Shown here: positions 11,196-16,540 of the stretch, piece by piece
How the letters are laid out: every line of letters begins with the position of its first letter
How positions within the stretch are numbered: position 1 is the stretch's first letter
From: Prochlorococcus marinus
Lineage (GTDB): Bacteria; Cyanobacteriota; Cyanobacteriia; PCC-6307; Cyanobiaceae
Direction: 5' to 3'
Length of the DNA: 64,000 nt
Assembly: GCF_001180265.1 (NCBI RefSeq)
Contig: NZ_CVSW01000032.1
Coordinates: 1-64,000 of the forward strand
Translations under genes and position numbers: made by a program
The notes under the pieces: model-generated
Told to the model about the DNA's origin: nothing
What the model saw: only the letters and a program-made list of their open reading frames with translations
The model's database searches: none

Positions 11196-12569
<1,374 letters not shown>

Positions 12570-12605
12570 TTATAAATTTTAAAAGTTTTATTACTAAAGT
12601 TTGAT

Positions 12606-12692
12606 CAAATTTCCACTTCCCTGAATCATTAATAATGATTCAGGTTCAAAGGGTATGATCTCAGCTAAGTTAAATTTCTTAGCACCCCTAGT
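12606..12692 (-). promoter_or_regulatory. TPP-riboswitch-like element in the thiC leader, altered second arm
   Basis: Read on the minus strand, the leader shows P2 as GGGGT (12688-12684) with ACCC (12654-12651). P3 is GCTAAG/CTTAGC (12683-12678 with 12669-12664), followed by the conserved CTGAGA-type stretch AGCTGAGATCATACCC. TTTGAACCTG follows, as in TPP aptamers. This is the pyrimidine-sensing half. The second arm, normally P4, internal loop, P5, is instead one continuous 11-bp hairpin (CCTGAATCATT, loop ATT, AATGATTCAGG) followed by GGAAGT. The bases that normally bind the pyrophosphate are not visible. Position before thiC and the conserved half make a riboswitch very likely; the ligand is uncertain. 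Confidence 0.8.
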
Positions 12693-12760
12693 ATTTATAT
12701 TATTGATAGCTCTTTTCTAAAGAATAGTCATCAAATATTGTGTGAAAATACATAAATATT

Positions 12761-12976
12761 TTATTTAATTTTTTGATAAAACTTTATCTTTTTTAAAATT
12801 TTCTTTCTAGCTAATCTTCTTCTTAAATCTTTCTCAAAAATAATTGAAATCCCCATTAAACCAATAGGCAAATAAAAAATCTTCCTATTATTATCCCTAA
12901 AAATCAGGCCAATAGATGATATAAGAATCATAAAAGGAGCTACAAAAGACAAAAAAAATCTTTTATTAATTTTCAT
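12761..12976 (-). CDS. Small hypothetical membrane protein
   Basis: An unrecognised 71-residue protein. Two hydrophobic stretches (about residues 7-25 and 34-47) look like membrane helices, and the C-terminus is strongly basic (DLRRRLARKKILKKIKFYQKIK region). The start is 7 bases after the stop of the M20 peptidase gene on the same strand, so it is likely the last gene of the ruvB-TPR-peptidase run. Coding status rests on length, position and membrane-protein character. Function unknown. Confidence 0.6.
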   Translation of the reverse strand: MKINKRFFLSFVAPFMILISSIGLIFRDNNRKIFYLPIGLMGISIIFEKDLRRRLARKKILKKIKFYQKIK

Positions 12977-12983
12977 TATCAGA

Positions 12984-14156
12984 TTAATTATTTATTTCAT
13001 TGTTTAATTTTACAATGGATTCAGTTATCACTTTAATACCAACAGCAATAGCTCTTTCATCAGGATCAAACTTGGAATTATGAAGTGGAGCGCATCCTTT
13101 TGAACTGGAAACACCAAGCCTAAACATAGCACCAGGGATCTCATGCAAAAACTCAGCGAAATCTTCAGCTCCTAACGATGGTTTTTGTAATTCGATAACA
13201 TTTTTTTGACCCAAAACCATAATTCCCGATTCTCTGAGGACTCTATTAATTTCAGGATTATTATTAACTGGTGGAGTAATTTCTCTAAATTTAACTTTTG
13301 CATCAGCTCCGCAACTATTGACTAAAGAAGAGATATTTTCATTGAGCCAATTACCAATATTTCTAAATAATTTAAGATTAGTGCATCTAACAGTCCCAAC
13401 TAAATTAACCTTTTCTGCAAGAACATTGAATGCATTTCCACCATTTATTTTACCAAAAGTTATTACTACAGGATCTAAAGGATCTAATTTACGTGTTATT
13501 GATTCTTGAATTCCCGAGATAACTTTAGAAGCAACCCAAATAGCATCAACACCTTCATGAGGTCTAGCACCATGGCCTGATTTTCCTTTGATCTCAACCT
13601 TTAGTTCACCAGCAGCTGCAGTTAAACTTCCCTCTTTAATTCCAATAGTTCCTACAGATAAATCAGGGTAAACATGAACCCCAAAAATATAGGTTAAACC
13701 ATTTGTTGCACCATCATTAATCATCCATCTTGCTCCACTCGCAATTTCTTCAGCGGGCTGAAAAATTATTCTAATCCCAAAGTCAAGTTCTAAATGCTTA
13801 ACAATTTTTGCTACACCCAATCCAATTGATATATGCAAATCATGACCACAGGCGTGCATAACACCATCTACTTTTGAAGAATAACTTAATTTAGTCTCCT
13901 CAAATATTGGTAAAGCATCCATATCCACTCTTACCCCAATAATGCCATTATCTGTGGGGCCAAAATCAGCGATGACTCCAGTCCTTCCAATAGATTCTCT
14001 GACGGTCCAACCAATATTTTTTAAGTAACCACTAATCAAAATCGCTGTTTGATTTTCAAATCCACTTAATTCCGGATGTGCATGGATATGTCTTCTTAAA
14101 TTAATTAATTCATCATTAAACGAATCAATCTTCTGAAACAACTGATCTCTATTCAT
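12984..14156 (-). CDS. M20D-family amidohydrolase/peptidase
   Basis: This 390-residue protein belongs to the zinc-dependent M20 family that includes hippurate hydrolase, N-acyl-amino-acid amidohydrolase and plant IAA-amino acid hydrolases. Metal-ligand motifs are in order: C103/H105 in MHACGHDLH, the glutamates of QPAEEIASGA (about 137-142), the histidine of GVHVYPD (about 163), and the late HNSKF (about 364). SGHGARPHEGVDAI marks the dimerisation domain. It lies between a TPR-protein gene and a small membrane-protein gene. The exact substrate cannot be read from sequence. Confidence 0.88.
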   Translation of the reverse strand: MNRDQLFQKIDSFNDELINLRRHIHAHPELSGFENQTAILISGYLKNIGWTVRESIGRTGVIADFGPTDNGIIGVRVDMDALPIFEETKLSYSSKVDGVMHACGHDLHISIGLGVAKIVKHLELDFGIRIIFQPAEEIASGARWMINDGATNGLTYIFGVHVYPDLSVGTIGIKEGSLTAAAGELKVEIKGKSGHGARPHEGVDAIWVASKVISGIQESITRKLDPLDPVVITFGKINGGNAFNVLAEKVNLVGTVRCTNLKLFRNIGNWLNENISSLVNSCGADAKVKFREITPPVNNNPEINRVLRESGIMVLGQKNVIELQKPSLGAEDFAEFLHEIPGAMFRLGVSSSKGCAPLHNSKFDPDERAIAVGIKVITESIVKLNNEINN

Positions 14157-16045: not shown

Positions 16046-16540
16046 ATGAAAAAAAACTCAAAAAAAGTTCAAAAAAATACTAAAAAAGAAAATAATTATA
16101 AACTTCTTGCTCAAAATAGATATGCAAAATTTCAATATTCAATTTCTGAAACAATTGAAGCTGGTATTGAACTTTTAGGGACTGAAGTAAAGTCAATTAG
16201 AAACGGAAAAGCAAATTTAAGAGATGGGTACTGTTCATTCAGAGACGGTGAGATTTTATTATTAAATGTTCACATTTCACCACACAAAAATGTGGGGTCT
16301 TTTTTTAATCATGATCCATTAAGAAATAGAAAATTGCTACTTCATAAAAAAGAAATAATAAAATTAAAGTCCAATACTGAAAAAAAAGGCATGACTATTG
16401 TCCCATTATCTTTGTATTTAAAAGGTTCATGGATAAAAATAAGTATTGGAGTCGGAAAAGGGAAAAAATTACATGACAAACGACAAGATGAAAAACAAAA
16501 AAGTATGAAAAAAGAAATTAACTATGCACTTAAAAGATAA
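16046..16540 (+). CDS. smpB: SsrA-binding protein SmpB
   Basis: SmpB binds tmRNA and brings it to stalled ribosomes. Signature segments are [18 protein letters not shown] (about residues 33-50), LLNVHISPH (about 74) and [22 protein letters not shown] near the end, the basic tail that reaches into the empty mRNA channel. The N-terminus is unusually Lys/Asn-rich, and the protein totals 164 residues. The tmRNA gene is not in this window. Confidence 0.97.

Follow-up and report, generated by a model that had tools for sequence, protein, structure and literature searches.

A thiC leader of Prochlorococcus that keeps the pyrimidine half of the TPP aptamer and lacks the pyrophosphate-binding internal loop

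The window, the whole stretch of 64,000 nucleotides of Prochlorococcus that was analyzed, encodes thiC on its minus strand. The leader of this gene is a TPP-class aptamer directly upstream of thiC. Positions 77 and 78 and the like are those of E. coli thiM. The elements of the locus, from the 5' end of the leader to the gene, are these:

12601..12699, minus strand: TPP-class aptamer, the whole RF00059 match (52.2 bits, E 1.1e-9)
12690..12693, minus strand: P1 5' strand TACT, also the 5' part of a predicted competing helix (predicted fold)
12685..12688, minus strand: P2 5' strand GGGG (in AGGGGTGC, 1 change over 8 sites in the 121-species tree)
12664..12683, minus strand: P3 hairpin GCTAAG...CTTAGC (model alignment and fold)
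12659..12664, minus strand: J3-2 CTGAGA, the pyrimidine-binding T-loop (0 changes over 6 sites in 121 species; role as reported in PMC3764141)
12651..12654, minus strand: P2 3' strand ACCC (0 changes over 4 sites)
12645..12650, minus strand: J2-4 TTTGAA, part of the three-way junction (0 changes over 6 sites)
12620..12644, minus strand: P4-P5 arm, closed up as CCTGAATCATT-ATT-AATGATTCAGG, with the J4-5/J5-4 internal loop lost
12634-12644 and 12620-12630, minus strand: the arm strands CCTGAATCATT and AATGATTCAGG, joined by the loop ATT
12624..12625, minus strand: equivalents of C77 and G78 of E. coli thiM, both of them U here (model alignment; 8 and 29 changes in the clade)
12603..12607, minus strand: TGATC, complement of GATCA in and next to J3-2, a predicted competing pairing (0 changes over 5 sites; in 114 of 121 clade leaders the pairing has a mean probability above 0.5)
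12592..12599, minus strand: CTTTAGTA, complement of TACTAGGG in the 5' strands of P1 and P2, a predicted competing helix (CTTTAGT, 3 changes over 7 sites; fold)
11196..12566, minus strand: thiC (HMP-P synthase), 456 aa, behind the leader (ORF; Pfam ThiC_Rad_SAM, E 1.5e-189)

Between the leader and a Peptidase_M20 gene (12984-14156) there is an ORF of 71 aa (12761-12976, minus strand). By eye it has two hydrophobic stretches, and it has no Pfam match.

A covariance-model scan of 301 bases matched RF00059 to 12601-12699 of the minus strand along the full model (positions 1-105 of 105), with 52.2 bits and an E value of 1.1e-9. This score narrowly misses the Rfam cut-off of 54.3 bits, and at the gathering score a scan therefore reports no TPP match for the window. 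When the whole genome, which is about 85% complete, was scanned, the leader had an E value of 1.2e-9 and the sole other match one of 5.28. The leader also folds far better than its shuffles (z -4.84). The earlier note had named P2 (GGGG/ACCC), P3 (GCTAAG/CTTAGC), CTGAGA and GAACC as the pyrimidine half of a TPP aptamer, and all of these sit on the minus strand of the window; CTGAGA corresponds to the T-loop U39-A43. Of the pyrophosphate site, G60 is present and C77 and G78 are both U. ThiC is encoded downstream, as expected of a thiamin gene context. A score slightly below the Rfam cut-off could point to chance resemblance or an assembly error. The E value of 1.1e-9, the position upstream of thiC and the occurrence of the CG-less form in 120 of 121 species refute this explanation, and we give it practically no credence. 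The same CG-less form is found in Prochlorococcus single cells and in MIT 9201.

The positions that differ in the window are among those on which recognition of TPP depends. U39-A43, U59, G60, C77, G78 and A80 are reported as highly conserved in E. coli thiM, and the highlighted columns of the Rfam seed are more than 95% conserved according to a supplementary legend (PMC3764141). The same paper describes U39-A43 as the pyrimidine-binding T-loop, and G60, C77 and G78 as interacting with a metal ion that coordinates the pyrophosphate. C77 and G78 are also said in a review to hydrogen-bond the pyrophosphate directly (PMC7824784). In the model alignment, the two J5-4 columns that hold CG in RF00059 are occupied by UU in the window, and P4-P5 is a single helix of 11 pairs. 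The central claim of the earlier note, that of a TPP-type leader (RF00059, E 1.1e-9) without the pyrophosphate-binding GCG internal loop, is therefore upheld. Its description of the second arm as replaced is not: P4 (CCTG/CAGG) and a short P5 remain, and what is gone is the internal loop.

Loss of the CG is a property of a whole clade. RF00059 matches occur in 216 of the 266 genomes of the genus, and above the cut-off in 72 of the 266. From the 216 matching genomes we read 154 leaders, namely that of the window, those of the 30 top scorers, 63 from the low end and 60 with intermediate scores. The CG arm is absent in 122 of these and present in 32, one of which (L062) lies inside the CG-less clade. 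Of the 62 matches outside the 154, three (L156, L158 and L159) have no usable aptamer, and those listed score about 52-54 bits, like the variant. In a FastTree tree of 226 thiC sequences (five of the 231, L115, L175, L189, L231 and L238, were left out for having fewer than 200 codons), the window falls within a clade of 121 species with a support of 1.0, and 120 of the 121 lack the CG. The sister clade has it in 21 of 21. The neighboring group (support 0.69 as a group) consists of this 21-member CG clade and L130, which is without CG. The earlier note had asked whether relatives carry an ordinary GCG arm in a register that had been missed. They do not, since in 120 of the 121 clade members the closing AGG is not preceded by CG.

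The leaders were found with the TPP model and with motif rules that lean on the pyrimidine half, and leaders damaged in that half are harder to find. ThiC is encoded within 2 kb downstream of 231 of 232 leaders, the exception being L018. L062 (G099:C15:19366-21364), the clade member that has CG again in J5-4, apparently differs by a single change, U77 to C. Another locus of the genus, L157, contains two weak TPP-like matches of 24.9 bits each, about 1.3 kb apart (G142:C11:14792-14884 and 16088-16180).

Relative to the sister-clade form, the arm of the clade has one base fewer, most leaders have U in place of C77, and position 78 is variable. The arm after GAACC is 23 bases long in 116 of 122 variant leaders and 24 in 31 of 32 others. 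Standard pairs are found in clade leaders at 57/82 (120/121), 58/81 (121/121), 59/80 (119/121), 60/79 (110/120), 61/78 (16/120), 62/77 (112/121), 63/76 (120/121), 64/75 (120/121) and 65/74 (113/121). The usual clade arm is thus nearly closed, with one A.N mismatch, and the window is among the few with A-U at 61/78. The continuous 11-bp helix with loop ATT proposed at the outset holds for the window, but as a general form it fails at 61/78, where 16 of 120 clade members have a pair. The second helix had also been expected to covary. It does so minimally: shuffles mostly attain the observed pairing (61 of 2000 did so at 63/76), and covariation thus offers little proof of the helix. The idea of a new helix with strong covariation was dropped, and the closed arm of the clade is mostly conserved sequence. 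A new ligand contacting the second arm should have left invariant bases of its own there. Apart from the P4/P5 pairing no such bases are apparent, which weighs against a new ligand of this kind.

Changes within the clade were counted by parsimony on the FastTree tree of thiC itself. There are none in CTGAGA (6 sites), the adjoining TCAT (4), the 3' strand of P2 (4), TTTGAA of J2-4 (6) and the downstream TGATC (5). AGGGGTGC has 1 change over 8 sites and CTTTAGT 3 over 7. The pyrimidine half is thus conserved in relatives as the earlier note had supposed, with 0 changes in CTGAGA and 0-1 in P2. Position 78 has changed 29 times, position 77 8 times and position 72 20 times; the loop has 71 changes over 7 sites, and 148 fall in the 20 sites of the spacer that precedes the start codon. 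Four-fold degenerate sites of thiC in the same species (n=133) have a mean of 15.55 and a median of 13 changes, and 12 of the 133 reach 29. At 29 changes against a four-fold mean of 15.6, position 78 is unconstrained. The 8 changes at position 77 fit its pairing with 62. In the sister clade neither position has changed, and about 6 changes would be expected at 78 at the clade's rate. Position 72 is reported as a thiazole contact in thiM (PMC7824784). Relative to four-fold sites, L5 changes at a rate of 0.65 in the clade and 0.17 in the sister clade. L5 docks the two arms together in TPP structures (PMC3764141), and its faster change suggests that this docking is relaxed too in the clade. Decay of the entire leader is excluded by the frozen sites of the pyrimidine half, and the one decayed leader that we found (in G104, described below) differs in appearance.

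The leader could still be a TPP sensor of weaker affinity, in which G60, the backbone and metal ions hold the diphosphate, with a higher set point that the cell either tolerates or requires. We regard this as possible, though on balance doubtful. It would be consistent with the single credible TPP-like element in the genome (about 85% complete), with the presence of genes for making TPP, and with the retention of G60 (G in 114 of 121 clade leaders), of P4 and of parts of a UAAU-like loop. The reported contacts speak against it, in that C77 and G78 belong, together with G60, to the highly conserved positions that contact the metal and pyrophosphate (PMC3764141). Furthermore, selection on TPP affinity should restrain position 78, and this position is unconstrained.

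Sequences further downstream in the leader are predicted to pair with the pyrimidine half. In predicted folds, the mean probability that the J3-2 region pairs downstream (TGATC with GATCA in the clade) exceeds 0.5 in 114 of 121 clade leaders and 19 of 21 sister leaders, and in 36 of 69 other CG leaders and 14 of 21 others without CG. The predicted fold that masks the pyrimidine pocket is therefore near-universal in the clade and its sister and occurs in about half of the rest. Shuffling the downstream part lowers the mean J3-2 pairing from 0.81 to 0.07 in 25 clade leaders, from 0.67 to 0.18 in the 21 sister leaders and from 0.49 to 0.17 in 25 others. The GGGG strand of P2 is predicted to pair downstream with a probability above 0.5 in 111 of 121 clade, 21 of 21 sister, 57 of 69 other CG and 20 of 21 other CG-less leaders. 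The downstream strands of this predicted competition with the pyrimidine pocket have been retained, and the leader therefore probably still works as a switch. The aptamer fold itself also seems to be under selection, since ten aptamer positions to which the window's predicted competing fold gives no partner (leader positions 44, 45, 66-68, 74, 75 and 82-84) are nevertheless constrained, with 1 change in total.

These constraints bear on a further explanation, that the leader is blind to ligands: sensing would have been lost, and the conserved parts would matter for initiation, for the stability of the mRNA or as a binding site for a protein or RNA. We think this unlikely. Regulation has been dispensable at least once, as the G104 leader has decayed in both halves before an intact thiC, and diatom TPP aptamers with conserved motifs are reported not to respond to thiamine or HMP (PMC9544697). 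However, the 121 species show 0 to 1 changes in CTGAGA, J2-4 and other aptamer positions, among them the ten left unpaired by the predicted competing fold, and the decayed G104 leader looks unlike those of the clade.

A simple consensus scan found 0 terminator-like sites in 12500-12900, which would make control of thiC by translation or stability likelier than by an intrinsic terminator; the scan, which also covered promoters, was otherwise unproductive. The absence of terminator-like sites separates the window's leader from the HMP-PP riboswitch (thiS motif). Both would belong to classes for a pyrimidine-bearing thiamin precursor, but the thiS motif is described as a small aptamer that forms part of an intrinsic terminator and responds to the diphosphate form (PMC6478431).

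We favor, tentatively and at a little short of an even chance, the view that the leader is a derived TPP-class riboswitch that has lost recognition of pyrophosphate, has kept switching, and senses only the pyrimidine, as HMP, HMP-P, thiamin or TMP. The aligned sequences show an arm with one base fewer than the sister form, with C77 and G78 gone and the J4-5/J5-4 loop, the site of the diphosphate and metal ions of TPP, closed. Position 78 then drifts freely, with the pyrimidine pocket, the three-way junction and the two complementary downstream strands frozen. The RNA may toggle between the aptamer fold (P1, P2, P3 and P4-P5) and a competing fold, in which TGATC is predicted to mask J3-2 and CTTTAGTA to pair with TACTAGGG. 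An aminopyrimidine compound that does not need a diphosphate (HMP, HMP-P, thiamin or TMP) would fill the J3-2 pocket; HMP-P, the direct product of ThiC, would be among the candidates. The ligand would favor the aptamer fold and lower thiC output, an OFF direction suggested by TPP switches in general. Several observations count against pyrimidine-only sensing. J3-2 masking above 0.5 is predicted in just 36 of 69 CG leaders outside the Prochlorococcus-type sister clades, L062 has the CG again, and the retention of G60, P4 and part of L5 would fit weak TPP binding.

A changed thiamin pathway does not account for the variant, as 11 genomes (7 variant and 4 classical) gave no sign of one. ThiL and the ThiE family were each found in 11 of 11 (6 of the ThiL matches score above the curated cut-off), and the ThiD family and TenA in 10 of 11 each. 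Neither the ThiD family nor TenA was found in G095, a classical genome.

Compared with the TPP riboswitch (THI element, RF00059), the clade's leaders share the P1-P2-P3-P4-P5 plan, the CTGAGA T-loop, GAACC at J2-4 and the site before thiC; they differ in having lost the J4-5/J5-4 pocket (C77 and G78), in an arm one base shorter and in a relaxed L5. With thiC leaders from the sister Prochlorococcus clade and from other genera in the family they share the pyrimidine half and the gene, and in many cases a complementary downstream strand (TGATC or GTGATC). Unlike the window's clade, the sister clade (21 of 21) and most leaders read from other genera (59 of 78) keep the CG of J5-4.

The CG has also been lost outside the clade. 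In the other genera of the family (Cyanobiaceae), 19 of the 78 leaders read lack C77 and/or G78. This share is not a frequency, since the sampling was enriched for low scorers: 29 of the leaders came from 30 genomes picked mainly for low scores (18 without CG), and 49 were listed high scorers (1 without). If CG cannot be regained, the tree implies about 17 separate losses besides the clade (other genera and L130). Under unordered parsimony there are 18 changes, interpreted as 11 losses and 7 regains. The CG-less leaders of the other genera retain the pyrimidine half. Among 13 genomes with no, weak or cut TPP matches, 11 also lack ThiC. L361 (G104:C1:306953-308320 and upstream), outside the clade and its sister, is the intact thiC with a leader decayed in both halves. 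The leader in G084 is cut by a contig end and its arm is classical.

More distant bacteria contain similar leaders. An exact search for the pyrimidine half returned at least 119 stretches, and arms were read in 79 among the 80 loci listed. Among the matches listed, some Bacteroidota have arms without CG before TonB receptors, and Clostridia have them before Thia_YuaJ (ThiT-type) transporters. These leaders likewise keep the pyrimidine half and have a P4-P5 without CG, but they differ from the window's clade in their uptake genes and arm sequences, and presumably have separate origins. The cases came from an exact pattern and from genomes chosen for it, and expression data for B. thetaiotaomicron (PMC5613172) were not used as evidence. 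Two clostridial leaders before Thia_YuaJ (ThiT-type), L254 (G612) and L284 (G613), keep the pyrimidine half and have GGACAGGATAATCCCTGAACGG-like arms without CG. Absence of CG cannot be a general rule for TPP leaders before Bacteroidota uptake genes, because an even sample of Bacteroidales (31 genomes and 34 matches) keeps CG in 29 of 34 by our reading. The keepers include four before TonB-receptor genes (L388, L389, L392 and L404); L393, L412, L413, L419 and L420 are without. On the sequences read, this pocket has closed repeatedly in bacteria, though not as a rule.

Tandem TPP-type aptamers precede one TonB-receptor gene in Marinilabilia rubra (L421, G599:C59:169200-172500) and in Anaerophaga thermohalophila (L422, G600:C22:72800-76300). 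In both, the first aptamer has the CG of J5-4 and the second is without it, possibly a two-input arrangement.

Our open literature search found no report of a CG-less TPP variant before thiC; a 2017 survey of variant riboswitches, which might describe one, fell outside its coverage. MED4 and MIT 9201 are high-light strains. A 2005 screen gives a putative TPP riboswitch before thiC in SS120, MIT 9313 and WH 8102, and MED4 is absent from that list (PMC1242208). High-light status of MED4 and MIT 9201 would fit this absence. In the portions available, neither a 2007 survey of riboswitch structures (PMC2258182) nor a 2022 review of ligands (PMC9971707) mentions a TPP variant for HMP, HMP-P or thiamin.

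We speculate, with rather low confidence, that these leaders form a natural TPP-derived riboswitch class for a vitamer without diphosphate, fixed in a major Prochlorococcus clade and reached repeatedly in other picocyanobacteria, and perhaps in leaders of uptake genes in Bacteroidota and Clostridia. Two half-pockets account for the specificity of the TPP riboswitch, and the clade shed one half and retained the other. The sister clades are a natural before-and-after pair and would allow a direct test of how riboswitches change ligands. Picocyanobacteria have been discussed as putative sources of B1 and of vitamers such as HMP (PMC10881298). A thiC that is not repressed by TPP in the usual way could alter the amount of pyrimidine that picocyanobacteria make.
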